DNA of 64,000 nt from Lachnospiraceae bacterium (GTDB lineage: Bacteria > Bacillota > Clostridia > Lachnospirales > Lachnospiraceae): the NCBI GenBank assembly GCA_017619615.1, contig JAFZRY010000023.1:1-64000 (forward strand), given 5' to 3'. Below are positions 3,398 through 22,702 of the stretch, in pieces (the first letter of the stretch is position 1; each line of letters starts with the position of its first letter). The position numbers and the translations under genes were made by a program. The notes below the pieces were generated by a model. That model was not told the origin of the DNA. It made no database searches and saw nothing but the letters and a program-made list of their open reading frames with translations.

Positions 3398-3922
3398 TCA
3401 GTACTCGATGCCCTTCCGGGCGGGTACGCCTTTGTCAAAGGGATGCTTGATCTTTTTCATCTCGGTCACGTAATCGGCCAGGTCCACGAGGGCGGGAGAG
3501 GGGTCGCGGCCGGTCAGGACGACTTCCAGGCCGGCGGGCTTTTCCTTCAGGAAACGGATGACTGCGTCCTCCGGGACCATTCCGCAGGCGATAGCGCCGA
3601 GGATTTCGTCCAGGACCAGCAGGTCATATTCTTCCTCCGCGGCGATGCGGACCGCTTCTTCGAAGAGGCCGGTGAAATCCGCGCGGGCGCGGGCTTTTTC
3701 TTCGTCGTCCATGGTCCAGATGAAGCCGTAGGGCTTGTCGCAGACCAGGATGCGGATGCCCGGAATCAGCCGCATCGCGCCCAGCTCCGCGGAATCGCCG
3801 CGCTTCAGATACTGGGTGAAGAGCACTTTCTTTCCGGCGCCGGCAGCCCGGACGGACAGGCCGACGGAGGCCGTGGTTTTGCCTTTGTTTTCGCCGCAAT
3901 AAATATGGATCAGACCGTTCAT
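3398..3922 (-). CDS. cobO: ATP:corrinoid adenosyltransferase, CobO/BtuR type
   Basis: This enzyme transfers the adenosyl group of ATP to cob(I)alamin to make adenosylcobalamin. The 174-residue sequence opens with IHIYCGENKGKTTASVGLS, the P-loop of the family near residues 9-18. It has LLVLDEILGAI as Walker B near residue 100, and ends with VTEMKKIKHPFDKGVPARKGIEY-type residues (T-E-M, K-H-P-F, A-R-K-G-I-E), which are hallmarks of CobA/CobO/BtuR. It is transcribed divergently from kamB with overlapping -35 boxes. Its neighbour pathway contains the adenosylcobalamin-dependent lysine 5,6-aminomutase, so supply of the cofactor to KamDE is the likely role. No cobalamin riboswitch is visible in the short leader. 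Confidence 0.93.
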   Translation of the reverse strand: MNGLIHIYCGENKGKTTASVGLSVRAAGAGKKVLFTQYLKRGDSAELGAMRLIPGIRILVCDKPYGFIWTMDDEEKARARADFTGLFEEAVRIAAEEEYDLLVLDEILGAIACGMVPEDAVIRFLKEKPAGLEVVLTGRDPSPALVDLADYVTEMKKIKHPFDKGVPARKGIEY

Positions 3923-3965: not shown

Positions 3966-4016
3966 ATGGTAGCGTGGCAGGAAGCATTTGTCAATTCGGA
4001 AAAAGCGTGGTATGAT
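3966..4016. promoter_or_regulatory. Face-to-face divergent promoters for cobO and kamB
   Basis: On the plus strand TTGTCA (3988-3993), a 17-base spacer and TATGAT (4011-4016) form a good sigma-A promoter for kamB. On the minus strand TTGACA (3994-3989), a 17-base spacer and TACCAT (3971-3966) form a promoter for cobO. The two -35 boxes overlap almost completely, so only one polymerase could bind at a time. Confidence 0.7.
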
Positions 4017-4041
4017 GGAGACGGATTTAAGGGAGACAGCG

Positions 4042-5016
4042 ATGAGATTACTGGATCTGACAGCCGGGGAACCGGCGGTGGCGATGCTGGGCATGTGCAA
4101 GAACGCCGGCAAGACCACGGCGATGAACCGCCTGATCCGTGAACTGGGCGAGGCCGGCGTCGAAAAGGCGGCGCTGACCAGCATCGGCCGGGACGGAGAG
4201 GCCCGGGACCTGGTCACGGGGACGGACAAACCGCCCATCTATATGCGGGAAGGCATGCTGGCCGCGACGGCGGAACAGCTTCTTTCCTTATGCGACGTTT
4301 CCCGGGAGATCCTGTCCGCGACGGGGCTGTATACGAGCCTGGGCGAGGTGATCGTGTTCCGGGCGCGGAGCGACGGCTTCGTGCAGCTGGCCGGGCCGGG
4401 CATCGTGGACCACATGATCCGGCTGCGGCGGGAATTCGACCGCTTCGGTGCGGGGCCCGTGCTGATCGACGGCGCGCTCAGCCGCCTGAGCCTGCTGGCG
4501 GGCGCCTCGGACGGGGCCTGCGTGCTCTCCACCGGCGCGTCCCTGGACCGGGACATGGGCCGGGTCGTGGCGGAAACGGCGTACGTGGCCGCGCTGCTGG
4601 GCCTGCCGGAAATGCCGGCACCGGGGCCTTCGCAGGGAAAACTGACCCTGTTCGGCGGAGGACCGGAAGGCCGCACGGTGACGGACTTAAGCCGCATCGA
4701 CCGTGCGGAACCAGAGGAAACGCTGCTCTCGGAAGGCGCGTTCACGGAGACCCAGGGCCGCACGCTGCTCAAGGGGTATACGAAAAAGCAGGGACTGACC
4801 CTGCTCGTGAGGGATCCGAGCTGCCTGATGCTGAAGCGGGAGACGTATGAAGCGCTCACTGCGCGGGGCATGCGGTTCGCCGTGCTGAAAGGCACGCGGC
4901 TGGCGGCCGTGACGGTCAACAGCGTCTCCGCCGGCGGCTGGCGCTTCGACGGCGAAGAGTTTTTGGAAAAGATGCAGGCAGCGGTGACCGTGCCGGTGCT
5001 GGACGTGAGGAAATAA
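4042..5016 (+). CDS. kamB: Lysine 5,6-aminomutase reactivase subunit KamB
   Basis: The 324-residue protein has a P-loop near residues 17-26 (GMCKNAGKTT) and no other widely shared domain that I can identify. Immediately upstream of a MutS-like KamC and within a lysine fermentation cluster, it matches the small partner of the two-part reactivase. That reactivase is thought to remove inactivated cobalamin from lysine 5,6-aminomutase at the cost of ATP. The start at 4042 follows AAGGGAGACAGCG. Earlier in-frame codons at 3988 and 4015 lie within the promoter itself and are not used. The gene ends 32 bases before kamC and is probably co-transcribed with it. The identification is from context and architecture. 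Confidence 0.8.
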   Translation: MRLLDLTAGEPAVAMLGMCKNAGKTTAMNRLIRELGEAGVEKAALTSIGRDGEARDLVTGTDKPPIYMREGMLAATAEQLLSLCDVSREILSATGLYTSLGEVIVFRARSDGFVQLAGPGIVDHMIRLRREFDRFGAGPVLIDGALSRLSLLAGASDGACVLSTGASLDRDMGRVVAETAYVAALLGLPEMPAPGPSQGKLTLFGGGPEGRTVTDLSRIDRAEPEETLLSEGAFTETQGRTLLKGYTKKQGLTLLVRDPSCLMLKRETYEALTARGMRFAVLKGTRLAAVTVNSVSAGGWRFDGEEFLEKMQAAVTVPVLDVRK

Positions 5017-5048: not shown

Positions 5049-6482
5049 ATGATCAGACTGAGCTACGAACAGAAAGAAGATATCGGCCTCAAATACGTGC
5101 GGGACATGCTGGACCCGGCGAGCCCTTACGGCGTGAAATTCCTGAAAGCCGAGGGATTTTACGGACAGGCCCGGCAGCAGGCGCTGGAAGAGGAACTGAA
5201 CAATATCGCCCTGCTTTGGCAGGACCTGGAAACGCAGGAGGCCGCGGTGGCGGACCTGCAGCACGCGCTGAGCGAACTGAAGGACCTGTCCGGGACGTTC
5301 GCGAACGGGATGACGCAGGCGCTGACGGAAGTGGAATTATTTGAACTGTCCGCATATTGCCGGCGGATGCAGGAATTGAGGCGGCTCGCGGAAGCGCTGC
5401 CGTCGTATCCGCGCCTGGCCGGGACGCAGTTGGAACCGGTGGAGGACGCGCTGCGGGTACTGGATCCTGCAGACAGCGGCCTGGCCGGGTTTTATATCGA
5501 GGACGCGCGCACGCCGGAACTCGCGGAAGCGCGCGCGGCCAAGCGGGCGGCGGAACTGCAGCTGCGGACCGCCCCGGAAGAGGGGCGGGAGGCACTGCTG
5601 AAACAGCGCCAGGAAGCGGCGCGCCGGGAGGAGGATGCCTTACAAGTGGTCTATGCGCAGATGAGCGCGGACCTGCGCCCGCATCTGCCCCTGCTGCAGC
5701 GGAACGCGGCGGCGGCCGGCCGTCTGGACGCGGGCATCGCCAAATCCCTGCTGGCCCGCCGGTTCGGCTGCGTACGCCCGGAAATGGGCGGCGAGGACCT
5801 GGTCCTGGAAGAAGCCGTCCATCCGCAGGTCGCGGCGGCGCTGTCGGAGCGCGGCCGGACTTTTACCCCCATCACGATGACCTTGTCCCGCGGCGTCACG
5901 GTCCTGACCGGCGCTAACATGGGCGGCAAGAGCATCGCCCTGAAGACCGCGCTGCTGAACGCCGCGCTGGCCCTGAGCGGCTGCTTCGTCTTCGCGCGGA
6001 GCGCCCGCGTGCCCTTCTTCGACCGGATCGAAGTGATCAACCGCGACTTTTCCAACGCCTCGCAGGGCCTGTCCAGCTTCGGCGGCGAGATCCTGCGGCT
6101 GAAGGAAGCGCTCGAGGACCTGCGCGAAGGCGGCCTGTCCCTGATCGTGATGGACGAACTGGCCCGCGGCACCAACGCCCGCGAAGGCGCGCAGATCGCC
6201 CGCGGGACCGTGAATTATCTGGCGGACAAGAATGCCGTGACGCTGCTCGCGACGCACTATGACGGCGCGGCGGAAGGCGCCGTCCGCCATTACCAGGTGA
6301 AGGGCCTGGCCCGCCGGGAGGACGCGTCCTGGACCGGCACCGCGGAGGGCCGCGACGGTCTGCGCCTGATCGAAAACGCGATGGACTACGGCCTGATCGA
6401 AGTGAAGCCCGGCACGGAATGCCCGCGTGATGCCATCGCCATCTGCCGCCTCCTGGGCCTGCCGGAGGAGATCCTGTCATGA
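5049..6482 (+). CDS. kamC: Lysine 5,6-aminomutase reactivase ATPase KamC (MutS-like)
   Basis: The 477-residue protein carries a MutS-type ABC ATPase domain in its C-terminal half. The Walker A is TGANMGGKS at residues 287-295, followed by the MutS-like GLSSFGGEI signature region near 340. The Walker B is LIVMDELARGTN near 365-376, then LATHYDG. The N-terminal half is helical and unlike the mismatch-binding domains, so this is not a DNA repair MutS. Homologues sit in lysine fermentation loci beside kamB and kamDE and are annotated as the reactivase ATPase. The stop overlaps the next ATG by four bases (ATGA), which implies translational coupling to the membrane ORF. Confidence 0.85.
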   Translation: MIRLSYEQKEDIGLKYVRDMLDPASPYGVKFLKAEGFYGQARQQALEEELNNIALLWQDLETQEAAVADLQHALSELKDLSGTFANGMTQALTEVELFELSAYCRRMQELRRLAEALPSYPRLAGTQLEPVEDALRVLDPADSGLAGFYIEDARTPELAEARAAKRAAELQLRTAPEEGREALLKQRQEAARREEDALQVVYAQMSADLRPHLPLLQRNAAAAGRLDAGIAKSLLARRFGCVRPEMGGEDLVLEEAVHPQVAAALSERGRTFTPITMTLSRGVTVLTGANMGGKSIALKTALLNAALALSGCFVFARSARVPFFDRIEVINRDFSNASQGLSSFGGEILRLKEALEDLREGGLSLIVMDELARGTNAREGAQIARGTVNYLADKNAVTLLATHYDGAAEGAVRHYQVKGLARREDASWTGTAEGRDGLRLIENAMDYGLIEVKPGTECPRDAIAICRLLGLPEEILS

Positions 6483-7375
6483 GCGGGGAAGCGCCCGTCA
6501 AAAAGAAAAAACAGTGGTGTCTCGGCATGCTGGGGATCATGCCTCTGACCTTTGCGATCGGCTTTTCCGGGCCGCTCGTCTTTTTTGGCGCGATGATGAT
6601 CCTGATCCACGGCGGCGCCTGGTGCGTGCCGCTGTTCCTGTCCTACCTGGCCGTGCTGATGCTGCCAACATCGCTGTGGGTCGGCCGCCGCGATTTGAAC
6701 AACCTGCATTTTATCCTGGGCGATGAAGTGTTTTACTCGGAACACCCGGACGAAATGAAAAAAGCCCTCCGCCGGAAGCGCCGGAAAGGCATCCCGCGCG
6801 AACGGGCCGACCGGGTGGAGCAGTACCGCAGCGAGCCGGTCCCCGAGTTCGGGGGAGAGAACGAGCGCTTCCTGAACGAGCGCCGGAAGGGCCGCCTGCT
6901 GTTCCTGGCCGCCGCCGTCCTGCTGGCCGCGCTGGCCGCCTGGCTGTTCGTCCAGGCCAACCACCTCTGGTGGGTCAACCGCAATACCGGCCGGAAACAG
7001 CCGGATCTTTCCTGGATCTTCCCGCTCGCGGGCGGCGTCCTGGTGGCGGTCACCGCGCTCCTGGCCTTCTTCCGGAAGATGAGCCGGTGGCTCCCGCCCG
7101 TGACCGTGCTCGTGCTGCTGTTCGGCGCCTGGGGCGCGTACGTTTCGGTCTCCGTGAACGCCCGCCTGGTGCTGACGGACGTGCTGAAAGGCTTCGGCTG
7201 CGCCGCCCTGTACGCCCTGGTCTGCTACGGCATCCTGCCTTTCGTGAAAGACCTCAAATCCCGGGAGGAGGCTTACCGGACCTACGCGGAACAGCAGATC
7301 GACCTGTTCGAACTGGGCTGCATTGACGAGGACCTGCTGCGCATCCGCCTGGATAAAAAGAGGCAGACCGGGTGA
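6479..7375 (+). CDS. Unknown multi-pass membrane protein coupled to kamC
   Basis: The 298-residue protein has a basic N-terminus (VKKKKQW) and about six hydrophobic segments. Two lie within residues 15-65, and four lie between residues about 142 and 265. A charged soluble stretch of about 70 residues sits between the two groups, with the Arg/Lys-rich RRKRRKGIPRERADR near residue 100. A short charged cytosolic tail follows. I recognise no transporter or enzyme signature, and it has too few helices for an amino acid permease. Its start overlaps the kamC stop (ATGA), so it is translated with the reactivase. It ends before the promoter and riboswitch that drive the rest of the lysine genes. Confidence 0.75.
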   Translation: MSGEAPVKKKKQWCLGMLGIMPLTFAIGFSGPLVFFGAMMILIHGGAWCVPLFLSYLAVLMLPTSLWVGRRDLNNLHFILGDEVFYSEHPDEMKKALRRKRRKGIPRERADRVEQYRSEPVPEFGGENERFLNERRKGRLLFLAAAVLLAALAAWLFVQANHLWWVNRNTGRKQPDLSWIFPLAGGVLVAVTALLAFFRKMSRWLPPVTVLVLLFGAWGAYVSVSVNARLVLTDVLKGFGCAALYALVCYGILPFVKDLKSREEAYRTYAEQQIDLFELGCIDEDLLRIRLDKKRQTG

Positions 7376-7416: not shown

Positions 7417-7444
7417 TTGCATTTTTCCGCCGTTTTACTATAAT
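7417..7444 (+). promoter_or_regulatory. Sigma-A promoter of the kal-kamE operon
   Basis: TTGCAT at 7417-7422, a 16-base spacer and a consensus TATAAT at 7439-7444 give a strong promoter. Transcription would start near 7451 and give an untranslated leader of about 265 bases that holds the lysine riboswitch. The genes downstream can therefore be expressed independently of kamBC. Confidence 0.8.
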
Positions 7445-7494
7445 ATTTCCAGACGGCTCCGCGAAGCCGCATTTGTTTGAGACAACCGCATAAA

Positions 7495-7660
7495 TACGAT
7501 AGAGGCGCAGAGCGCAGGGTAACGTCCTTCCCACGGCATCAGGCAATGCCGGAAGGGCGCGACGGGGCGCTTTGCCGAAGGATGCGGCCGGCCGACGCCG
7601 CTTCCTGGGGACCGGGCCCGGCGCCAGTTCCTGTCATGACGATCATGAAGCGCTATCCGA
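7495..7660 (+). promoter_or_regulatory. Lysine riboswitch (L-box aptamer)
   Basis: The region follows the lysine aptamer order. P1 is formed by GATAG (7498-7502) and CTATC (7653-7657). The conserved AGAGGCGC comes directly after the P1 5' strand. P2a pairs CCTTCC with GGAAGG around a hairpin of GGCAT and ATGCC. The core GCCGAAGG lies at 7574-7581. P3 has arms GCGGC and GCCGC. P4 starts with CCTGGGG and closes with CCAG. CTGTCA leads into P5, whose arms are TCATGA at 7634-7639 and 7643-7648. This order and these bases match the well-known lysC-type aptamers. With the terminator and promoter, it fills the only gap over 300 bases in the window (7376-7716). Confidence 0.92.
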
Positions 7661-7689
7661 GGAAACGACCCGGACGGCGCTTATTCTTT
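7648..7689 (+). terminator. Terminator of the lysine riboswitch expression platform
   Basis: The 5' arm 7648-7659 (AAGCGCTATCCG) pairs with 7671-7682 (CGGACGGCGCTT) over 11 of 12 positions, counting one G-T pair. The T-rich tract 7681-7689 follows. The 5' arm contains the whole P1 3' strand (7653-7657), so the terminator and the ligand-bound aptamer cannot form together. This geometry predicts read-through when lysine is bound. Confidence 0.8.
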
Positions 7690-7716
7690 AAATAACAATA
7701 CTGAGGAGGATCCCCT

Positions 7717-8103
7717 ATGAAATCACTCATTCGCATCCGCATGGGAGCGGAAGACGCCCATTACGGCGGTAACCTGGTGGACGGCGCGCACATGCTCCAC
7801 CTGTTCGGCGACGTGGCCACGGAACTGCTGATCCGCTACGACGGCGACGAAGGCCTGTTCTGCGCCTACGACAACGTGGAATTCCTGGCGCCTGTTTTTG
7901 CCGGCGATTACATCGAGGCGGAAGGGGAGATCGTCCATGTGGGCAACACCTCCCGCAAAATGGTCTTTGAGGCCCGCAAGGTGATCGTGCCCCGCCCGGA
8001 CATCAACGAATCCGCCTGCGACGTGCTGGAAGAGCCCATTGTCGTCTGCCGGGCAAGCGGCACCTGCGTGGTCCCGAAGGATAAGCAGCGGGGGAATCAT
8101 TGA
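7717..8103 (+). CDS. kal: 3-aminobutyryl-CoA ammonia-lyase
   Basis: Kal removes ammonia from L-3-aminobutyryl-CoA to give crotonyl-CoA, the last dedicated step of the acetate/butyrate-forming lysine fermentation. The 128-residue product is a single hotdog-fold domain. It opens [19 protein letters not shown], includes the central helix region [15 protein letters not shown], and has the strand [17 protein letters not shown] seen in thioesterase-like and (R)-hydratase-like hotdogs. Length and the neighbouring kce fit the family well. GAGGAGG at 7703-7709 is the RBS. It is the first gene after the lysine riboswitch, and its stop (TGA 8101-8103) overlaps the kce start by one base. Confidence 0.92.
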
Positions 8104-8918
8104 TGGAAAAACTCATCATCACCGCCGCCATCTGCGGCGCGGAAGTAACCAAGGAGCAGAACCCCGCCGTGCCCTACACGGTGGAGGAGATCGTGCGCGA
8201 AGCGAAGAGCGCCTATGACGCCGGCGCCGCCATCGTCCACCTGCACGTGCGGTGGGACGACGGCACGCCCACGCAGGACCGCGAACGGTTCCGCGAATGC
8301 ATCGACGCCATCAAAAAGGAGATCCCGGACGTGATCCTGATCCCGTCCACCGGCGGCGCGGTCGGTATGAGCGCGGAAGAGCGCCTGCAGCCCACCGAAC
8401 TCTTCCCGGAGATGGCCACGCTGGACTGCGGCACCTGCAATTTCGGCGACGACGTGTTTGAAAACACGATGCCCGTCATGCGCGCGTTCGGCAAGCGGAT
8501 GCTCGAAAACCATATTAAGCCGGAGTACGAATGCTTCGAGATGGGCCACCTGGACACGGTCCTCACAATGGCCCGCAAGGGACAGGTCCCCGGCGCGCCC
8601 ATGCAGTTCAACTTTGTGCTGGGCGTCCCCGGCTGCACGCCCGCCACGGTGGACAACCTGGCGTGGCTGGTGCGGAGCATCCCGGCCGGCAGCACCTGGA
8701 CCGCCACCGGCATCGGCCGCGCGGCCTTCCCGATGGCCGCCGCCGCCATCGTCATGGGCGGCAACGTCCGCGTCGGTTTTGAGGACAACCTCTACCTGGA
8801 GCGCGGCGTGCTTGCGAAGAGCAACGGCGAACTGGTCGCCAAGGTCGTGCGCCTGGCAAAGGAACTGGGACGGGAGATCGCCACGCCGGCGGAAGCCCGG
8901 AAGATTTTAGGATTATAA
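8103..8918 (+). CDS. kce: 3-keto-5-aminohexanoate cleavage enzyme
   Basis: Kce converts 3-keto-5-aminohexanoate and acetyl-CoA to 3-aminobutyryl-CoA and acetoacetate. The 271-residue TIM-barrel (BKACE/DUF849 family) shows the metal-binding HLH pair at residues 46 and 48 in IVHLHVR. The acidic residue of VGFEDNLYL, near residue 227, is the likely third ligand. PSTGG near residue 81 and the GVPGCTPAT segment near 174 are also typical. The start is the ATG at 8103, where TGATG overlaps the kal stop. The TTG three bases earlier is unlikely. It is co-transcribed with kal and kdd. Confidence 0.95.
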   Translation: MEKLIITAAICGAEVTKEQNPAVPYTVEEIVREAKSAYDAGAAIVHLHVRWDDGTPTQDRERFRECIDAIKKEIPDVILIPSTGGAVGMSAEERLQPTELFPEMATLDCGTCNFGDDVFENTMPVMRAFGKRMLENHIKPEYECFEMGHLDTVLTMARKGQVPGAPMQFNFVLGVPGCTPATVDNLAWLVRSIPAGSTWTATGIGRAAFPMAAAAIVMGGNVRVGFEDNLYLERGVLAKSNGELVAKVVRLAKELGREIATPAEARKILGL

Positions 8919-8945: not shown

Positions 8946-9989
8946 ATGGAACAGTTAAAAGGCAATAAATACGGCACCCACCGCGTCATCGAGCCCAAGG
9001 GCGTCCTGACCCAGGCGGCCTGGAAGATCGACAACGACATGACCAAGCATTATTCCAACGAGATCATCTGCGACGTGATCTCCCTGAATATCGATTCCGC
9101 GTCCTTCACGCAGATCGAGGAAGCCTGCGGCGGCGACGAGCAGAAGATCGGCGAAATGATCATGGGCATCGTGGCCGAGCGCGGCAAGCAGCAGAACCCG
9201 GTCACCGGTTCCGGCGGCATGTTCATCGGCAAGGTCGCCTACATCGGCGACGACCTGAAGGACCGCGACCTGAAGGTGGGCGACAAGATCGCCTCCCTGG
9301 TGAGCCTGTCCCTGACCCCGCTCCGGATCGATAAGATCCTGGCCATCCACAAGGCGATCGACCGCGTGGACATCGTCGGCCAGGCCGTGCTGTTCGAAAG
9401 CGGCCTGTACGCCAAGCTGCCGGACGACATGTCCGAAGCGCTGGCGCTCGCGGCTCTCGATGTGGCCGGCGCTCCCGCCCAGGCCCGCCGCCTGCCCAAG
9501 GAGGGCGACAGCGTGCTGATCCTCGGCGCCAACGGCAAATCCGGCGTGCTCTGCGCCTGGGAAGCCATGAAGAAGGTCGGCCCGAACGGCAACGTGGTCG
9601 GCGTGGTCCGCAACCCGAAGCAGGTCCCCGCTCTGATGGAACTGGGCGTGTACCACAAAGTCGTAGTCGCCTCCGCCACCGAGCCCGTCGCCGTGCTGGA
9701 AGCGGCGCTGGAAGCGAACGGCGGGAAGGAATACGACCTGTCCATCAGCTGCGTGAACGTCGAGGCCTGTGAAATGAGCGCCATCCTGCCCGTGAAGGAA
9801 GGCGGCACGGTCTACTTCTTCTCCATGGCCACCAGCTTCACCCGCGCGGCCCTGGGCGCCGAAGGCGTGGGCAAGGACATCACGATGATCGTCGGCAACG
9901 GCTACGCGAAGAACCACGCGGAGATCACGCTGAACGTGCTGCGCGAAAACGCGAAGATCCGCGAACTGTTCGATAAGAAGTACGTATAA
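8946..9989 (+). CDS. kdd: L-erythro-3,5-diaminohexanoate dehydrogenase
   Basis: Kdd oxidatively deaminates L-erythro-3,5-diaminohexanoate to 3-keto-5-aminohexanoate with NAD(P)+. The 347-residue protein has an N-terminal GroES-like catalytic half. It continues with a Rossmann domain that begins near residue 190 with VLILGANGKSG, in which the G-A-N-G-K-S-G loop is characteristic of this family. The very regular YGTHRVIEPKGVLTQAAW N-terminus is also typical. The start follows GAGAGGAGAGACAATAA. It sits between kce and kamA in the same operon. Confidence 0.93.
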   Translation: MEQLKGNKYGTHRVIEPKGVLTQAAWKIDNDMTKHYSNEIICDVISLNIDSASFTQIEEACGGDEQKIGEMIMGIVAERGKQQNPVTGSGGMFIGKVAYIGDDLKDRDLKVGDKIASLVSLSLTPLRIDKILAIHKAIDRVDIVGQAVLFESGLYAKLPDDMSEALALAALDVAGAPAQARRLPKEGDSVLILGANGKSGVLCAWEAMKKVGPNGNVVGVVRNPKQVPALMELGVYHKVVVASATEPVAVLEAALEANGGKEYDLSISCVNVEACEMSAILPVKEGGTVYFFSMATSFTRAALGAEGVGKDITMIVGNGYAKNHAEITLNVLRENAKIRELFDKKYV

Positions 9990-10010: not shown

Positions 10011-11264
10011 ATGCAGACCCGCAACGGATTATTTGCCGAAGTGCCGGCAGAACAGTGGAACGACTGGAAATGGCAGGTGCGCAACCGCATCGAAACGGTG
10101 GAGGACCTGAAAAAGTATATCGACATCACCCCGGAAGAGGAAGAGGGCATCCGCCAGTGCCTGGGCGTGCTGCGCATGGCCATCACCCCCTACTACCTGT
10201 CCCTGATCGACCTGGACGATCCCCATGACCCGATCCGCCGCCAGGCCATCCCGACGGCCCTCGAACTGCACAAGGCGGACGCGGACCTGCTGGATCCCCT
10301 GCACGAGGACACCGACTCCCCGGTGAAGGGCCTGACCCACCGCTATCCGGACCGCGTGCTGCTGCTGGTGACGGACCAGTGCTCCATGTACTGCCGCCAC
10401 TGCACCCGCCGCCGCTTTGCCGGCCAGACGGACTGCGCCGTGCCGCTGGAGCAGATCGACGCCTGCATCGAATACGTGCGTAGCCATCCGGAAGTCCGCG
10501 ACGTCCTGATCTCCGGCGGCGACCCGCTGGTGATGAGCGACGACCGCCTGGAATACATCATCGCCAAAGTGCGCGAGATCCCGCATGTGGAGATCGTCCG
10601 CATCGGCAGCCGCACGCCGGTCGTCATGCCGCAGCGCGTCACGCCCGAACTGTGCGCGATGCTGAAGAAGTATCACCCGGTGTGGCTGAACACCCACTTC
10701 AACCACCCGAAGGAAGTTACCGAAGAATCCAGGCGCGCCTGCGCGATGCTGGCCGACGCCGGGATCCCGCTGGGCAACCAGAGCGTGCTGCTCGCGGGCG
10801 TCAACGACTGCGTCTTCACCATGAAGAAACTGGTGCATGAGCTGGTCAGGATGCGAGTGCGGCCGTACTACATTTACCAGTGCGACCTGTCCATGGGCCT
10901 GGAGCATTTCCGCACGCCCGTGGGCAAGGGCATCGAGATCATTGAGGCTCTGCGCGGCCATACCAGCGGCTTCTGTGTGCCGACCTTCGTCGTGGACGCT
11001 CCCGGCGGCGGCGGGAAGATCCCGGTGATGCCGGACTATCTGATCTCCCAGACACCGCACCGCGTGATCCTGCGCAACTTCGAAGGCGTGATCACCACCT
11101 ACACGGAGCCCGAGAACTACAAGGAGACCTGCCAGTGCGAATACTGCCGCGGCGAGCGGGAGGCCAGACTGGTGGGCGTCGCCGGCCTGGAGCACGGCCA
11201 GGCGCTGAGCCTGGAACCCAAGGGACTGGCGCGGGCCGAACGCGGCAACGGCAAGAAGAATTGA
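10011..11264 (+). CDS. kamA: Lysine 2,3-aminomutase (radical SAM, PLP)
   Basis: KamA interconverts L-alpha-lysine and L-beta-lysine, the first step of the pathway, using S-adenosylmethionine, a 4Fe-4S cluster and PLP. In the 417-residue protein the cluster cysteines are C124, C128 and C131 in DQCSMYCRHCTRRR. The PLP-lysine motif PGGGGKIPV lies near residues 330-338. A cysteine-containing tail (CQCEYC) near residue 380 fits the C-terminal zinc-binding region of the clostridial enzyme. AAAGGAG precedes the ATG. It is followed after 14 bases by kamD. Confidence 0.95.
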   Translation: MQTRNGLFAEVPAEQWNDWKWQVRNRIETVEDLKKYIDITPEEEEGIRQCLGVLRMAITPYYLSLIDLDDPHDPIRRQAIPTALELHKADADLLDPLHEDTDSPVKGLTHRYPDRVLLLVTDQCSMYCRHCTRRRFAGQTDCAVPLEQIDACIEYVRSHPEVRDVLISGGDPLVMSDDRLEYIIAKVREIPHVEIVRIGSRTPVVMPQRVTPELCAMLKKYHPVWLNTHFNHPKEVTEESRRACAMLADAGIPLGNQSVLLAGVNDCVFTMKKLVHELVRMRVRPYYIYQCDLSMGLEHFRTPVGKGIEIIEALRGHTSGFCVPTFVVDAPGGGGKIPVMPDYLISQTPHRVILRNFEGVITTYTEPENYKETCQCEYCRGEREARLVGVAGLEHGQALSLEPKGLARAERGNGKKN

Positions 11265-11278
11265 AAGCAGGGGCGCAT

Positions 11279-12838
11279 ATGACTAGTAAGATCGGTTTAG
11301 ACCATGCGCTGGTGGATAAGGCACGGGCTTCTGCCGCAAAAGTGGCGGAGGACACCCAGCGCTTCATCGACCGGCACACCACCGTCGCGGTGGAACGCAC
11401 GGTCTGCCGCCTGCTGGGCATCGACGGGATCAACGACGTGGAGGTCCCCATGCCCAACGTGGTGGTGGAGCATCTCACGGAAAAAGGCCTCCTGGCGGAA
11501 GGCGCGGCCCTGCGCATCGGCAACGCGATGGCGGAACTGGGCATCGGCCCGCAGGAGGTCGCGGAAGGCATCGACCGGGGGGAGATCGACCTCGCCGCCC
11601 TGCCGCTGCATTCCGACGCGGAGATCCGCGCGGCGCTCGCGCCCGTGGTCGATGCCACGATGGCCCGCATCCGCGCCAACGTCGCGAAGCGCAACGAATA
11701 TCTGACGGAATTCGGCGACAAGCAGGGCCCGTACATCTACCTGATCGTCGCCACCGGCAACATTTACGAGGACATCACCCAGGCCAAGGCGGCGGCCAAG
11801 CAAGGCGCGGACGTCATCGCCGTGATCCGCACCACCGGCCAGAGCCTGCTGGACTTCGTGCCCTACGGCGCCACCACGGAAGGCTTCGGCGGCACCTACG
11901 CCACCCAGGAGAACTTCCGCCTGATGCGCGCGGCCCTGGACGAGGTGGGAGAGGAGCAGCACCGTTACATCCGCCTCTGCAACTACTGCTCGGGCCTGTG
12001 CATGCCGGAGATCGCCGCGATGGGCGCCCTGGAGCGTCTGGACGTGATGCTGAACGACGCGCTGTACGGCATCCTGTTCCGCGACATCAACATGCAGCGC
12101 ACCATCGTAGACCAGTATTTCTCCCGCGTGATCAACGGCTTTGCCGGCGTTATCATCAACACCGGCGAGGACAACTACCTGACCACCGCGGATGCTTATG
12201 AAGAGGCCCACACCGTGCTGGCCAGCCAGTTCCTGAACGAGCAGTTCGCCGTCCAGGCCGGCCTGCCCGAGGAGCAGATGGGCCTGGGCCACGCCTTCGA
12301 GATGGATCCGGACCTGCCCAACGCCTTCCTCTACGAGCTGGCGCAGGCGCAGATGGCCCGTGAGATCTTCCCGAAAGCGCCGCTCAAATACATGCCGCCC
12401 ACCAAATTCATGACCGGCAACATCTTCCGCGGCCACGTGCAGGACGCCCTGTTCAACATGGTGACGATCCTGACGAACCAGAAGATCCACCTGCTGGGCA
12501 TGATGACCGAAGCCATCCACACGCCGTTCATGAGCGACCGCGCGCTGGCCATCGAGAACGCCCAGTACATCTTCCGCACCATGGCGGACCTGGGCGAGGA
12601 CATCGAGTACAAGAAGGGCGGCATCATCCAGAGCCGCGCGGCGGAAGTGCTGCAGAAGGCCGCAGACCTGCTGGGCGAGATCGAACGCATCGGCCTGTTC
12701 GCCACGCTGGAAAAAGGCGTGTTCGCGGACATCAAACGCCCGCTGGACGGCGGCAAGGGCCTGGACGGCGTGACGACCAAATCCGACCGCTATTTCAACC
12801 CCTTCGTTGAGGAAATGAGGAAGGAGGCGCGCGCATGA
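11279..12838 (+). CDS. kamD: Lysine 5,6-aminomutase alpha subunit
   Basis: KamD is the large TIM-barrel subunit of adenosylcobalamin- and PLP-dependent lysine (beta-lysine) 5,6-aminomutase, which moves the terminal amino group to give 3,5-diaminohexanoate. The 519-residue product starts MTSKIGLDHALVDKARA and matches the expected length for the alpha subunit. The segment LCNYCSGLCMPEIAAMGALERLD and the PPTKFMTGNIFRGH region are typical of the barrel. The frame extends upstream to 11135 inside kamA, but GAAAGCAGGGGCGC before the ATG at 11279 sets the start. Its TGA overlaps the kamE ATG by four bases, as expected for a stoichiometric complex. Confidence 0.95.
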   Translation: MTSKIGLDHALVDKARASAAKVAEDTQRFIDRHTTVAVERTVCRLLGIDGINDVEVPMPNVVVEHLTEKGLLAEGAALRIGNAMAELGIGPQEVAEGIDRGEIDLAALPLHSDAEIRAALAPVVDATMARIRANVAKRNEYLTEFGDKQGPYIYLIVATGNIYEDITQAKAAAKQGADVIAVIRTTGQSLLDFVPYGATTEGFGGTYATQENFRLMRAALDEVGEEQHRYIRLCNYCSGLCMPEIAAMGALERLDVMLNDALYGILFRDINMQRTIVDQYFSRVINGFAGVIINTGEDNYLTTADAYEEAHTVLASQFLNEQFAVQAGLPEEQMGLGHAFEMDPDLPNAFLYELAQAQMAREIFPKAPLKYMPPTKFMTGNIFRGHVQDALFNMVTILTNQKIHLLGMMTEAIHTPFMSDRALAIENAQYIFRTMADLGEDIEYKKGGIIQSRAAEVLQKAADLLGEIERIGLFATLEKGVFADIKRPLDGGKGLDGVTTKSDRYFNPFVEEMRKEARA

Positions 12839-13623
12839 GCTCGGGACTCTATGACATGTCCGCGAAGGACTTTGACAAGACGCTAGACCTCTCCGCGATC
12901 AAGCCCTACGGCGACACCATGAACGACGGCAAAGTGCAGCTGTCCTTCACCCTGCCCGTGGCCAACAACGACCGCGGCATGGAAGCCGCCCGCATCCTGG
13001 CCAAGAAGATGGGCCTGACCGAGCCCAACGTGGCCTACGCGCGCACGCTGGACGCGGAATTCACGTTCTACGTGGTGTACGGCTCCTGCACGTATACGGT
13101 GGATTACAACAACATCAAGATCCAGGCCATCGAAGACGTTTCCATGGAGATGGACGAGGTGGACGCGTACATCAAGGAGCACATCGGGCGGAAGATCGTG
13201 GTGATCGGCGCCTCGACGGGCACGGACGCGCACACCGTGGGCATCGACGCCATCATGAACCGCAAAGGCTTTGCGGGGCATTACGGCCTGGAACGCTATG
13301 AGATGATCGAGGCCCTCAACATGGGCGCGCAGGTCCCCAACGAGGAATTCCTCGCCAAGGCCCGCGAGATCCACGCGGACGTCCTCCTGGTGAGCCAGAC
13401 CGTCACCCAGAAGAACATCCACATCATGAACCTCACCGAACTCATCGAGCTCGCCGAAGCCGAAGGCATGCGCTCAAATTGCGTCATGTGCTGCGGCGGC
13501 GCCCGCATCACCCACGAACTCGCCAAGGAACTCGGCTTCGACGCCGGCTTCGGTCCCGGCAAATTCGCTAACGACGTCGCGACGTTCTGCGTGAAGGAGA
13601 TGGTCAGGAGAGGGATGAAGTAA
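12835..13623 (+). CDS. kamE: Lysine 5,6-aminomutase beta subunit (B12- and PLP-binding)
   Basis: KamE carries the Rossmann-like cobalamin domain of lysine 5,6-aminomutase. The 262-residue sequence has the base-off DxHxxG motif in TGTDAHTVGID, with the cobalt-ligand histidine at residue 133. The lysine of MNRKGF, at residue 144, has the position and spacing of the PLP-binding lysine known for this subunit. The N-terminal dimerisation domain (residues 1-100) is intact. Translation is coupled to kamD through ATGA. It is the last gene of the operon, followed 12 bases later by a strong terminator. Confidence 0.96.
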   Translation: MSSGLYDMSAKDFDKTLDLSAIKPYGDTMNDGKVQLSFTLPVANNDRGMEAARILAKKMGLTEPNVAYARTLDAEFTFYVVYGSCTYTVDYNNIKIQAIEDVSMEMDEVDAYIKEHIGRKIVVIGASTGTDAHTVGIDAIMNRKGFAGHYGLERYEMIEALNMGAQVPNEEFLAKAREIHADVLLVSQTVTQKNIHIMNLTELIELAEAEGMRSNCVMCCGGARITHELAKELGFDAGFGPGKFANDVATFCVKEMVRRGMK

Positions 13624-18503: not shown

Positions 18504-19019
18504 ATGATGGAAAACACCCTGGACCGGATCCTTTCGGATCAGAAAAGCAAAGGGCGTCTCAGCCTTCTGATAGGCGTATCGCTTTTCGCCGCCGCAGCAG
18601 TTTTGCTGGCGGTGGGACAGGTTATGGGCTGGGTATTCCTGGGCATGTCGGCCGTTCTCGGCGCAGCTCTGTGGCAGCGCGTGAAACGGAACAGACAGGA
18701 ACTGGCCAAACTGGGTGATCCGGAAACGGCGAAAAAAGAATTGCGTGCTGACGGGACGGCATACTATCAGTCTTTCGGACTGACGGTATGCCGTCGTTTT
18801 TGCATATCGGAACGCCCGTCCCTGCAGGTCCTCCCGTTTGAAGAGATGGAAAAATTCGAGGTGGGCCTGGCCGGCGATGCGCGGAAAGTCCTGTTCCTGA
18901 CGGATAAGAAAGGCGTCCGGCATCCGGTCGCGGAGACCGTAAAGGATGACGGAAACCAGGAGGAGTTCGACCGGGCGTATCAGCAGATCAGGACTGCTTT
19001 TGCGGAACGGAAACAGTAA
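18504..19019 (+). CDS. Membrane-anchored protein of unknown function
   Basis: The 171-residue protein has two adjacent hydrophobic segments (residues about 19-38 and 41-58) followed by a soluble C-terminal domain of about 110 residues. That domain contains LRADGTAYYQSFGLTVCRRF and a strand-rich part resembling PH-like or YcxB-like domains, but I cannot assign it. Two ATGs (18504, 18507) follow CGGAGA. It ends 37 bases before the tetronate dehydrogenase gene and may share its transcript. The AT-rich gap upstream (18389-18503) contains a TATGAT but no convincing -35. Confidence 0.6.
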   Translation: MMENTLDRILSDQKSKGRLSLLIGVSLFAAAAVLLAVGQVMGWVFLGMSAVLGAALWQRVKRNRQELAKLGDPETAKKELRADGTAYYQSFGLTVCRRFCISERPSLQVLPFEEMEKFEVGLAGDARKVLFLTDKKGVRHPVAETVKDDGNQEEFDRAYQQIRTAFAERKQ

Positions 19020-19056
19020 ATGGGATCATAAAGCCAAGACTGAAAGGAGAGAAGAC

Positions 19057-19947
19057 ATGAAAGTAGGATTTATCGGACTAGGAATTATGGGGCGGCCGCT
19101 GGCCAAGCATCTGCTGAACGCGGGTGTCGATCTGATGGTATCGGACGTGAACCCGGTACCCGTGCAGGAACTGGTGTCGATGGGCGCCGGGACGGGATCC
19201 TACGCCGAGATCGGCGAGCAGTGCGACGTCGTGATCACGATCCTGCCCACGGGCGGCATCGTGCAGTCGGTGCTGTTCGGCGAGGGCGGCATCGCTTCCA
19301 CCTTGAAGCCCGGCAGCCTGGTGATCGACCACAGCTCCGTCACGCCGGTGGAATCCCGGGAATGCTATGCGAAACTGAAAGAAAAAGGCGTTGATTTCGT
19401 GGACGCGCCGGTATCCGGCGGCGAACCCGGCGCCATCGCGGGCACGCTGGCCATCATGGCGGGCGGCGATGAAGAGGCCTTCAAGCGGGCCGAAGAAGTC
19501 ATCAAGCCGTATTCCTCCTCCATTCTCCGGATCGGCCCGGTGGGCAGCGGCAGCGTAGCCAAGCTGGCCAACCAGATCATCGTGAACAACAACATCGCCA
19601 TCGTTTCCGAAGCCCTGACCTTCGCCGTGAAGGCCGGTGCGGATCCGGAGAAGGTCTATCTGGCCATCCGCGGCGGCCTGGCCGGCTCCGCGGTGCTGGA
19701 CGCCAAGGCACCCATGATGTACAACCGCAACTTCGTGCCCGGCGGCCCCATCCGCATCAACCACAAGGACATCACCAACGTAGTGAAGACCGCGCACGCG
19801 ATCGACGCGCCGATCCCCTACACCGCCCAGCTGTACGAGATCATGCAGTCCCTCAAGATCCACGGCCTGATGGGCGAGGACCATTCCGCCATCGTGAAGT
19901 ACTTTGAGGCCATGGGCGACGTCAAAGTTGAGAAGAAGGGAGAATGA
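19057..19947 (+). CDS. Beta-hydroxyacid dehydrogenase, L-threonate/tartronate-semialdehyde type
   Basis: The 296-residue enzyme belongs to the 3-hydroxyisobutyrate dehydrogenase family. It begins with the NAD(P) loop GFIGLGIMGRPLAKHL, has the substrate loop DAPVSGGEPGAIAGTLAIM near residue 120, and carries the catalytic lysine in GSGSVAKLANQ near residue 170. GarR (2-hydroxy-3-oxopropionate reductase) and LtnD (L-threonate 2-dehydrogenase) are the closest candidates. The next gene being a DUF1537 kinase favours an LtnD-like role. The ORF continues upstream into the preceding gene, but AAAGGAGAGAAGAC before 19057 marks the start. The stop is one base from the next ATG. Confidence 0.85.
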   Translation: MKVGFIGLGIMGRPLAKHLLNAGVDLMVSDVNPVPVQELVSMGAGTGSYAEIGEQCDVVITILPTGGIVQSVLFGEGGIASTLKPGSLVIDHSSVTPVESRECYAKLKEKGVDFVDAPVSGGEPGAIAGTLAIMAGGDEEAFKRAEEVIKPYSSSILRIGPVGSGSVAKLANQIIVNNNIAIVSEALTFAVKAGADPEKVYLAIRGGLAGSAVLDAKAPMMYNRNFVPGGPIRINHKDITNVVKTAHAIDAPIPYTAQLYEIMQSLKIHGLMGEDHSAIVKYFEAMGDVKVEKKGE

Positions 19948-19948
19948 G

Positions 19949-21373
19949 ATGGCGATCGGAACCGAGATCCTGACCAGCTTCAAACCCATCGACGTGCCGG
20001 CGGTCGACGCCCTGCTGAACGCGGAGATCGCGGCGAACAACAAGAAGATCGTAGTCCTGGACGACGACCCCACCGGCGTGCAGACCGTGCATGACATCAC
20101 CGTCTACACCAACTGGGACAGGGACAGCATCCGCCAGGGCTTTGAAGAAGAAAACAACCTGTTCTACATCATGACCAACTCCCGCGGCTTCACGGCGGAG
20201 CAGACCACGAAGGCGCATCATGAGATCGCCGCCGTGGTGGACGAAGTCGCGCGCGAAACGGGCCGCGAATACATCTTCATCAGCCGCAGCGACTCGACGC
20301 TGCGCGGCCATTATCCGCTGGAGACCAAGCTGCTGCGGGACGACTATGAAAAGTACACCGGCAAGAAGATCGACGGCGAGATCCTGTGCCCCTTCTTCAA
20401 GGAAGGCGGCCGCTTCACCATCGGCAATGTCCACTATGTGAAATACGGCAATGAACTCGTCCCGGCCAATGAGACCGAATTCGCGAAGGACAAGACCTTC
20501 GGCTACACCGCCGCCACCATGCCCGGCTACGTGGAAGAGAAGACCGGCGGCGAATTCAAGGCGGAAGACGTCACCTGCATCACGCTGGAAGAGATCCACG
20601 ACATGGATATCGACGGGATCCAGGCCAAGCTGATGGCCGTGAAGGACTTCAACAAGATCGTCGTCAACGCCGTGGATTACGTCGATGTCAAAGTCTTCTG
20701 CGTGGCCCTGTACCGCGCGATGGCCGCCGGCAAGGTCTTCATGTTCCGCACCGCGGCCGCCATCGTCAAAGTCCTGGGCGGCGTCACGGACCAGCCCCTG
20801 CTGACCCGCGAAAAGATGGTGCAGACCGAAACGGACAACGGCGGCGTCATCGTGGTCGGCTCCCACACGGACAAGACCACCCGTCAGTTGAACTGCTTAA
20901 AGACCCTGGAGGGCATCGAATTCATCGAACTGGATGCCACGCTCGTGCGCGACGAAGCCGCGTTCGAAGCCGAGGTGCAGCGCTGCCTGGATCTGGAAAA
21001 CAAGTGCATCGCGGCGGGCAAGACCGTCTGCTGCTACACCACGCGCGCGCTGATCACGGCGGACACCGGCGATAAGGAAGACGAGCTCCGCCTGTCCGTC
21101 CGCATCTCCGACGCGGTGCAGTCCCTGGTGGGACGCCTGTCCGTGACGCCCAGCTTCGTGATCGCGAAGGGCGGCATCACCTCCAGCGACGTGGGCACCA
21201 AGGCCCTGGCCGTGAAGAAGGCGAACGTCCTGGGACAGATCCGGCCCGGCATCCCGGTCTGGCAGACCGGCGACGACAGCCGCTTCCCGCGCATCCCTTA
21301 CGTGATCTTCCCCGGCAACGTGGGCGAAGACGAGACCTTAAAAGAAGCGGCCGAGATCCTGCTGGCCAAATAA
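19949..21373 (+). CDS. Four-carbon acid sugar kinase family protein (DUF1537), first copy
   Basis: The 474-residue protein shows the DUF1537 kinase N-terminal motif VLDDDPTGVQTVHD (residues about 35-48). It continues with MTNSRGFTAEQT and FISRSDSTLRGHYPLE, whose S-R-S-D-S-T-L-R-G signature is diagnostic. The C-terminal domain contains FVIAKGGITSSDVG, the nucleotide-binding K-G-G-I-T-S motif. Members phosphorylate 3-oxo-tetronates or D-threonate at O4. It is tightly coupled to the dehydrogenase gene before it. It is longer than, and only partly similar to, the second DUF1537 copy that follows, so the two probably act on different tetronates. Confidence 0.85.
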   Translation: MAIGTEILTSFKPIDVPAVDALLNAEIAANNKKIVVLDDDPTGVQTVHDITVYTNWDRDSIRQGFEEENNLFYIMTNSRGFTAEQTTKAHHEIAAVVDEVARETGREYIFISRSDSTLRGHYPLETKLLRDDYEKYTGKKIDGEILCPFFKEGGRFTIGNVHYVKYGNELVPANETEFAKDKTFGYTAATMPGYVEEKTGGEFKAEDVTCITLEEIHDMDIDGIQAKLMAVKDFNKIVVNAVDYVDVKVFCVALYRAMAAGKVFMFRTAAAIVKVLGGVTDQPLLTREKMVQTETDNGGVIVVGSHTDKTTRQLNCLKTLEGIEFIELDATLVRDEAAFEAEVQRCLDLENKCIAAGKTVCCYTTRALITADTGDKEDELRLSVRISDAVQSLVGRLSVTPSFVIAKGGITSSDVGTKALAVKKANVLGQIRPGIPVWQTGDDSRFPRIPYVIFPGNVGEDETLKEAAEILLAK

Positions 21374-21397
21374 GGAAGCTCCAGAGAGGAGAGGCTC

Positions 21398-22702
21398 ATG
21401 GCCCAATGCGTCGTCATCGCGGATGACCTGACCGGCGGCAACGCCACCGGCGTGCTTCTCCGCAAAATGAACTATCAGGCGGACACCGTGCTGAACCTCG
21501 GCGCGGTGGATCCCGCCCTGATCAAATACAGCGACTGCGTCGTCTACCCCACGGACTCCCGCGGCGTCAGCCCGGAAGAAGCGTACCGGCGGGTCTACAA
21601 AGCCTGCGAAGTGCTGGCCGGTCCGGACGTGAAGATCTACACGCACCGCATCGACAGCACGCTGCGCGGCAACCTGGGCAGCGAAACGGACGCGATGCTG
21701 GACTACCTGGGCGAAGATTACGTCGCCGTCGCGGCGCCCTGCTTCCCGGCCACCGCGCGCATCGTCTGCGGCGGCTACATGCTGGTCGAAGGGATCCCCC
21801 TGCACCAGACCAACATCGCCATCGACCCCAAAACGCCCGTCCTGACCTCGGACGTGGCCGCGCTGTTCCGCGGACAGAGCAAATATCCCGTCGCCGCCCT
21901 CATGATGGACGAGCTGATGAAGGGAGCGGACCACCTGGCCGCGCGTCTGAAAGAACTGGCGGCGGAAGGCGTCCGCACGATCACGCTGGACTGCATCACG
22001 CAGGAGGACCTGGACCTGATCGCGGACGCGGTCATCGCGAGCGGCCTGAAATTCATCGCCGTGGACCCCGGCGTCTTCACGGCTACGCTGGTCGGCCGGC
22101 TGATCGCGCAGGAGGCCTCCCTCGGGAAGTACCGCATCCTGTCCGTCGTCGGCAGCGTCAACTCCCGCACGCTGGACCAGATGCGCTACGTGTGGAAAAA
22201 CCTGGACACCGGCCGCGTCATGGTGGAAACGAAAAAACTGCTGGAAAGCGATGAGGCGTGCGAAGAGGAGATCGCCCGCGTGGTGAACACCGTCCTCTAC
22301 GCCAGCGCCGGCAACCAGGTGCTCACCGTGACCGGCGACGGCATCTATCCCGAAAACCGCATCGATTTCGCCCCGTACATGGAGAAGTTCCATTGCTCCA
22401 TGGACGACGTCACCGCCCTGATCAACCGCTCCTTCGCTGAGATCGCGTACCGTATCTTCCGCGCCGAGCCGTCGTTCCGGGGCTTGTACACCAGCGGCGG
22501 CGACGTGACCGTGGCCGTCTGCGAACGTTTCGAGACCGCCGGCCTGCGCCTTAAAGACGAGGTGCTGCCGCTCGCGGCTTACGGAGAATTCCTGGGCGGG
22601 GAGTTCCAGGGCGTGCACATCGTCACCAAGGGCGGCAGCCAGGGCGACGAGACCGCGATCGCCCGCTGCCTCTCGTTCCTGAAAGAAAAAATAGCCAAAT
22701 AA
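21398..22702 (+). CDS. D-threonate kinase-like protein (DUF1537), second copy
   Basis: The 434-residue kinase opens VVIADDLTGGNATGVLL, the A-D-D-L-T-G form of the DUF1537 substrate motif. It has VYPTDSRGVSPEE and the signature THRIDSTLRGNLGSE near residue 80. A C-terminal GLYTSGGDVTVAVCE supplies the nucleotide-binding T-S-G-G-D motif. DtnK proteins with this pattern phosphorylate D-threonate to its 4-phosphate and are encoded next to pdxA2, exactly as here. GAGAGGAGAGGCTC precedes the ATG. Confidence 0.85.
   Translation: MAQCVVIADDLTGGNATGVLLRKMNYQADTVLNLGAVDPALIKYSDCVVYPTDSRGVSPEEAYRRVYKACEVLAGPDVKIYTHRIDSTLRGNLGSETDAMLDYLGEDYVAVAAPCFPATARIVCGGYMLVEGIPLHQTNIAIDPKTPVLTSDVAALFRGQSKYPVAALMMDELMKGADHLAARLKELAAEGVRTITLDCITQEDLDLIADAVIASGLKFIAVDPGVFTATLVGRLIAQEASLGKYRILSVVGSVNSRTLDQMRYVWKNLDTGRVMVETKKLLESDEACEEEIARVVNTVLYASAGNQVLTVTGDGIYPENRIDFAPYMEKFHCSMDDVTALINRSFAEIAYRIFRAEPSFRGLYTSGGDVTVAVCERFETAGLRLKDEVLPLAAYGEFLGGEFQGVHIVTKGGSQGDETAIARCLSFLKEKIAK

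Follow-up and report, generated by a model that had tools for sequence, protein, structure and literature searches.

A predicted transcriptional ON lysine riboswitch ahead of the lysine fermentation genes of a Lachnospiraceae bacterium

The DNA analysed here, called the window at its whole length of 64,000 nucleotides, comes from a Lachnospiraceae bacterium (contig JAFZRY010000023.1) and carries six genes of lysine fermentation behind a single leader (Table 1). All six exceeded the curated cut-offs of the NCBIfam equivalog models, in agreement with the gene run kal-kce-kdd-kamADE that a preliminary description had read from the sequence. The lysine 5,6-aminomutase reactivase genes kamB (4003-5016) and kamC (5049-6482) lie upstream of the leader, beyond the reach of the switch. 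A cobalamin adenosyltransferase-like gene (3398-3922, reverse strand), which scored below its curated cut-off, is also upstream of the riboswitch and outside its control. The same-strand gene upstream of the leader ends at 7375; the ORF of 298 aa located between kamC and the leader (6479-7375) matched no NCBIfam or Pfam family and looks membrane-bound. Elsewhere in the window, the region 18946-22702 includes genes for a 2-hydroxy-3-oxopropionate reductase and a D-threonate-kinase-like protein (below cut-off), and the ORF between them matched no NCBIfam family.

Table 1. Features of the leader and of the genes behind it (positions in the window).
Feature	Position	Strand	Basis
Promoter-like element, TTGCAT - 16 nt - TATAAT (putative)	7417..7444	+	loose pattern
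Small 5' leader hairpin before the aptamer, CGGCT..AGCCG	7454..7469	+	sequence
Lysine riboswitch aptamer (RF00168)	7492..7663	+	63.3 bits, gathering score 30, E 3.4e-14
P1 5' strand, GATAG	7498..7502	+	RF00168 alignment
P5 hairpin, TCATGA-CGA-TCATGA	7634..7648	+	RF00168 alignment, sequence
Intrinsic terminator hairpin, exclusive with P1	7648..7682	+	-19.6 kcal/mol, z -4.1; covariation in 27 leaders
J5/1 core AGCG, common to the terminator	7649..7652	+	RF00168 alignment, fold
P1 3' strand CTATC, within the terminator 5' arm (4 of 5 nt paired there)	7653..7657	+	alignment, fold
U-rich tail of the terminator, ATTCTTT	7683..7689	+	sequence, fold
Ribosome binding site of kal, GAGGAGG, outside the hairpin	7703..7709	+	read from sequence
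kal, 3-aminobutyryl-CoA ammonia lyase	7717..8103	+	NF052388, 198.9 bits, cut-off 160
kce, 3-keto-5-aminohexanoate cleavage enzyme	8103..8918	+	NF052387, 436 bits, cut-off 382
kdd, 3,5-diaminohexanoate dehydrogenase	8946..9989	+	NF052381, 261 bits, cut-off 200
kamA, lysine 2,3-aminomutase	10011..11264	+	TIGR03820, 629 bits, cut-off 525
kamD, lysine 5,6-aminomutase alpha subunit	11279..12838	+	NF052384, 917 bits, cut-off 600
kamE, lysine 5,6-aminomutase beta subunit	12835..13623	+	NF052385, 395 bits, cut-off 280

The loose pattern of the promoter-like element matches 10 of the 11 genus leaders, and a generic promoter scan of the window leader gave no promoter above threshold. Position 7417, where the preliminary description began the leader, is the first base of this element. 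The other genus leaders also fold at the position of the 5' hairpin, from different sequence.

The preliminary description had claimed a full lysine aptamer, which the covariance search accepted: the alignment covers positions 1-182 of the 182 of the RF00168 model, and nothing else in the window reached an Rfam gathering score. This aptamer is also the sole lysine riboswitch found in the window's genome (a 2.0 Mb assembly, estimated as 91% complete). P1 has five pairs only, and the next pair outward is a C-C mismatch. The core motifs AGAGG, GCCGAAR, CTGTCAT and GCTA are all present, as are the aptamer motifs that the preliminary description listed. The score is low for the family: among 232 genomes with an RF00168 match, compared by best E-value regardless of the gene behind, only G006 has a weaker one.

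The terminator hairpin overlaps the end of the aptamer. Dinucleotide shuffles of its sequence had a mean of -9.2 kcal/mol, and none of 200 was as stable. The paired stretches of its 5' arm are 7648-7654, 7656-7659 and 7661-7662, with A7655 as a mismatch, and its 3' arm ends at 7682, directly before a broken U-rich tail. The 5' arm includes one nucleotide of P5 (A7648), the whole J5/1 and, as paired bases, four of the five nucleotides of the P1 3' strand. Thus the overlap with P1 and the end of P5 that had been described for a 5' arm at 7648-7659 stands, while its extent is corrected, since pairing runs to 7662. When the DNA behind P1 was shuffled, a P1-overlapping terminator of -15 kcal/mol or lower arose in 2 of 500 sequences, and one of -10 kcal/mol or lower in 4 of 500.

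Folding of the growing transcript from 7490 kept P1 in the minimum-energy structure until 7676, and the terminator replaced it from 7680. At that point the terminator fold had -88.9 kcal/mol against -82.3 with P1 forced (a gap of 6.6), and at 7689 the values were -92.6 and -83.3 (a gap of 9.3); since the calculation is at equilibrium and leaves out ligand, tertiary contacts and kinetics, the values show the exclusivity and the order of the folds, not the efficiency of the switch. The aptamer P1 and the terminator are mutually exclusive, as had been proposed from the letters, and this is an ON geometry. The energy gap could plausibly be bridged kinetically by ligand binding.

Conservation was assessed in 31 lysine riboswitch leaders standing immediately before kal (kal leaders), comprising the window, 10 of 12 other kal loci of the genus, 7 of 28 of the order and 13 of 39 scanned loci from named records, and in 70 control leaders with high-scoring RF00168 matches from the bacterial family of the window. 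The controls (30 plus 40 further picks from the match list, some entries being skipped) are not a random sample, and 65 of them precede a dapA-like N-terminus. One terminator finder was used for all leaders, and a terminator was called overlapping when its 5' arm paired at least 4 of the 6 modelled P1 3' positions. Such a terminator was present in 30/31 kal leaders and in 4/70 controls (Fisher p 3e-20, with kinship ignored). The lone exception among the kal leaders is L147. The four overlapping controls are L022, L026, L159 and L186; for L022 and L186, the helix in question resembles an antiterminator. Only terminators failing the overlap criterion were found in 63 controls, and none at all in three, one of which (L006) is cut off at a contig end. 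The kal leaders are not fully independent of one another: at 85% identity they form 26 clusters, and the controls form 70.

The five inner P1 pairs form in all 31 kal leaders. Alignment A2 includes 27 of them, leaving out L147, without overlapping terminator, and the near-duplicates L035, L039 and L065. In A2 the terminator helix of 14 pairs has 90.5% of its cells paired, with 10 of the 14 pairs changed on both sides; the structure was derived from these same sequences, with L147 set aside, which favours the paired percentage and, to a lesser degree, the double changes. Its covariation was 0.558 against 0.249 for shuffled alignments (0/500 as high), and slid registers reached at most 0.168. 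A kept P1 together with a covarying terminator helix means that one strand is constrained to pair in two alternative ways, the hallmark of a switch. The overlap is thus retained in relatives, the comparison that the preliminary description had proposed.

The RF00168 model was detected at 30 of the 79 scanned kal loci, a lower bound because the fast filters of Rfam miss some aptamers, and many kal genes have no detected lysine riboswitch. From 80 named-record loci, 39 were scanned and 41 left out; among the kal loci, L033 was run twice and L073 is not part of the scanned set. One leader (L227) was negative in the filtered Rfam scan, yet it reached 55.0 bits in another scan. Likewise, L052 and L070 have no RF00168 match at the gathering threshold, yet ON-like platforms are visible in them, with 22.3 and 43.0 bits, respectively, for the terminator-only model R1 described below. 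The six scanned loci of Bacteroidota-named records (L082, L105, L124, L137, L145 and L146) gave no RF00168 match.

Within the genus, which would be one of rumen Lachnospiraceae, kal is present in 13 of 16 genomes, and all 13 have a lysine riboswitch of ON geometry: 11 at kal and two at kamA. The latter are G307 and G309, whose ON-geometry riboswitch precedes kamA (L236 and L237). None was detected at kal in either genome, the G307 contig covering just 124 bases of the kal upstream region. The kamA gene is above the cut-off in L237 and is a contig-end fragment in L236. In G302, G306 and G308, a second lysine riboswitch (L233-L235) occurs beside the ON leader and has OFF geometry: its terminator stands apart from P1, and a 9-nt stretch complementary to the P1 3' strand overlaps the 5' arm of this terminator. 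The riboswitch of G306 (L235) precedes a PF03553 Na+/H+-antiporter-family gene, the one case in which the family was tested, and by eye L233 and L234 closely resemble it in both leader and gene start. G305, without kal, presents non-overlapping terminators at dapA (L239) and at a PF03553 gene (L238). The DapA cut-off was passed in one of the 16 genomes (G305), and a match at E 0.001 was found in 7/16; none was found at that level in the window's genome (G000, estimated as 91% complete), where lysine auxotrophy is possible. Members of the genus may live on external lysine, and assembly gaps could contribute to the absence of dapA. In another leader, L232, a lysine riboswitch of 93.6 bits (119-285) has UUGAGG/GCAA in place of UAGAGG/GCUA and precedes a gene with an isochorismatase domain; it is a possible variant of the lysine riboswitch.

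We propose that the window leader is very probably a transcriptional ON lysine riboswitch for the lysine fermentation genes. The direction is deduced from structure and comparison: the base pairing, the 30/31 against 4/70 leaders, the helix covariation and the OFF-geometry second riboswitch in three genus genomes. This agrees with the direction first proposed for kal-kce-kdd-kamADE. In the predicted mechanism, RNA polymerase would make the aptamer first, and lysine bound before about 7680 is transcribed would hold P1 and J5/1 in the bound fold and block the terminator, so that kal-kce-kdd-kamA-kamD-kamE would be transcribed. Without lysine, the later-made 3' arm of the terminator would displace the P1 3' strand, ending transcription in the U-rich tail (around 7683-7689). 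The outcome would be that lysine fermentation enzymes are made when lysine is plentiful. Control at the level of translation was discounted, as the hairpin does not include the ribosome binding site of kal. The regulator CarR also binds the kal promoter in Fusobacterium nucleatum (PMC12186487); with this and the many kal loci without a detected riboswitch, the switch need not be the sole control.

The classical OFF arrangement, in which lysine-bound P1 permits a separate downstream terminator and an antiterminator captures the P1 3' strand when it is free, is the common one for the class: the terminators of 63 controls fail the overlap criterion, and OFF action is what the relevant part of a 2024 review describes for lysine riboswitches. 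In the window leader, however, the finder gave a single terminator, which draws on the P1 3' strand, a scan of the forward strand between the aptamer and kal gave no terminator-like site, and one would not expect a catabolic operon to be repressed by its own substrate. We consider this reading very improbable.

A slightly less probable reading keeps the ON design and replaces L-lysine with a pathway intermediate, such as beta-lysine, as the ligand. The enzyme encoded by kamA, which is part of the operon, makes beta-lysine. Moreover, the kal aptamers have some features of their own: the base after AGAGGn is G in 100% of them and in 33% of controls; the last P5 base, G in 70/70 controls, is A in 58% of them; and a loose J3/4 pattern occurs in 22/31 of them against 68/70 controls. 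On the other hand, AGAGG, GCCGAA and GCT are invariant in both sets at the positions examined, and the first two differences sit in P2 and P5, where the A suits the 5' arm of the terminator, so no change of ligand is needed to explain them. L-lysine is the predicted ligand of the ON switch.

The idea of a chance overlap, with an ordinary terminator of upstream transcription next to an inert or drifted aptamer, would suit the upstream same-strand gene and the low aptamer score, but is hardly credible given that just 2/500 shuffles reproduce such an overlap, that 30/31 kal leaders keep it with covariation, that the aptamer core motifs are kept and that the aptamer-terminator unit also stands before kamA in two genus members. 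The OFF geometry and the chance overlap were both rejected, on the lone overlapping terminator and on conservation and shuffles.

The ON platform also occurs beyond kal. A terminator-only model of it, R1, was trained on the kal leaders of A2, the window included, and matched 45 of 391 genomes of the class, with the window's own among them; R1 alone is not specific. All controls scored at most 20.2 bits against 43.7 for the window, although the scores of the window and the other A2 leaders, which trained the model, are not evidence. Of the 29 other R1 loci returned, 3 had a lysine aptamer according to Rfam at the gathering threshold; in one of the three (L215, before a DapA-like ORF), the R1-matching helix looks like an antiterminator. 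The loci L196 and L197 were found via R1, and their likeness to it is not independent. At L225 (9860-11116, reverse strand) and L226 (9549-10817, reverse strand), an ON-geometry lysine riboswitch precedes a glutamate-1-semialdehyde-aminomutase-like enzyme, which is below every curated cut-off shown. In L226 this gene heads kce, a CoA-transferase gene, kdd and kamABCDE; in L225 no lysine pathway gene is named behind it. The riboswitch of L227 (4011-4189, reverse strand) precedes a gene pair, one gene for a short protein whose TPR-like match is weak and one for a PF03553 transporter; it has ON geometry, opposite to that of the antiporter-gene leaders of the window's genus.

In L081, L102, L108 and L141, a second partial copy, with the P5 end, J5/1, the P1 3' strand and its own terminator, stands behind the first (1389-1441, 34.6 bits for R1; 1415-1458, 42.8 bits; 1322-1367, 36.9 bits; and 1357-1412, 22.6 bits, respectively). 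In these leaders one aptamer is followed by two serial terminators, both possibly switchable. Another arrangement is seen in L059, L063 and L065, and more weakly in L046, where a second terminator hairpin just behind the first contains TGAAATCTTATTTTCA. In L059, L063 and L065 this is the exact reverse complement of TGAAAATAAGATTTCA, the inner part of the first terminator, and by this complementarity the first terminator, when freed, could disarm the second.

Tentatively, the ON platform might be an old conserved module of lysine fermenters, with a sign opposite to that of other lysine riboswitches in the same cell, present at kal, at kamA, at an aminotransferase-kce-kam operon and at a Na+/H+-antiporter-family gene, and serially duplicated in some relatives, where one aptamer must defeat two successive terminators in a two-checkpoint lysine switch.

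The same idea of positive regulation was reportedly raised by Rodionov in 2003. PMC5584792, citing the review of Serganov and Patel (2009), states in the part compared that the lysine riboswitches preceding kal/kce are positively regulated in Clostridium sticklandii, Fusobacterium nucleatum and Thermoanaerobacter. The ON principle is therefore already published, as a statement without visible data in that part of the source, and the novelty that the preliminary description implied does not hold. In the literature searched, with most subscription papers outside the search, we found no natural lysine ON switch that had been demonstrated by experiment. The window switch is a well supported new case of a type already predicted. 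What is new here is the geometry tested against the OFF type, the covariation, the occurrence at other lysine fermentation genes and the co-occurrence of ON and OFF geometries within single genomes. Most descriptions of lysine riboswitches present them as OFF switches, and the kal leaders look like a natural ON type with a simple, readable design. The two geometries in three single genomes offer a natural test of one aptamer wired to opposite outputs, and the ON leaders mark lysine fermentation genes in rumen-type bacteria.

Compared with the riboswitches of PMC5584792, the window has the same aptamer class, the position upstream of kal (in Thermoanaerobacter, behind a regulator gene) and, as predicted here, the positive regulation asserted there; it differs in its genus and in having kdd and kamADE in the same gene run, and the parts of that paper compared describe no expression platform for their leaders. 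The OFF riboswitches of dapA and of transporters belong to the same RF00168 class with the same invariant motifs, and differ in a terminator that is mostly separate, as in most of the controls, with the 9-nt P1 complement in L233-L235. For B. subtilis and E. coli, the 2024 review, which deals with C. difficile riboswitches, describes lysine riboswitches that act as OFF switches. In the gcv glycine ON riboswitch the ligand likewise turns genes on, with a different aptamer and ligand. The adenine ON riboswitch (pbuE) activates its gene by terminator disruption, again with a different aptamer and ligand. Lysine-activated riboswitches were reportedly also engineered in Corynebacterium glutamicum by Zhou and Zeng in 2015. 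In the engineered lysine-activated switches of C. glutamicum in PMC10974012, lysine turns genes on as predicted for the window; according to the parts of that source compared, those switches were selected from a library made from a natural lysine riboswitch, the natural one being used to repress, whereas the switch of the window is natural.
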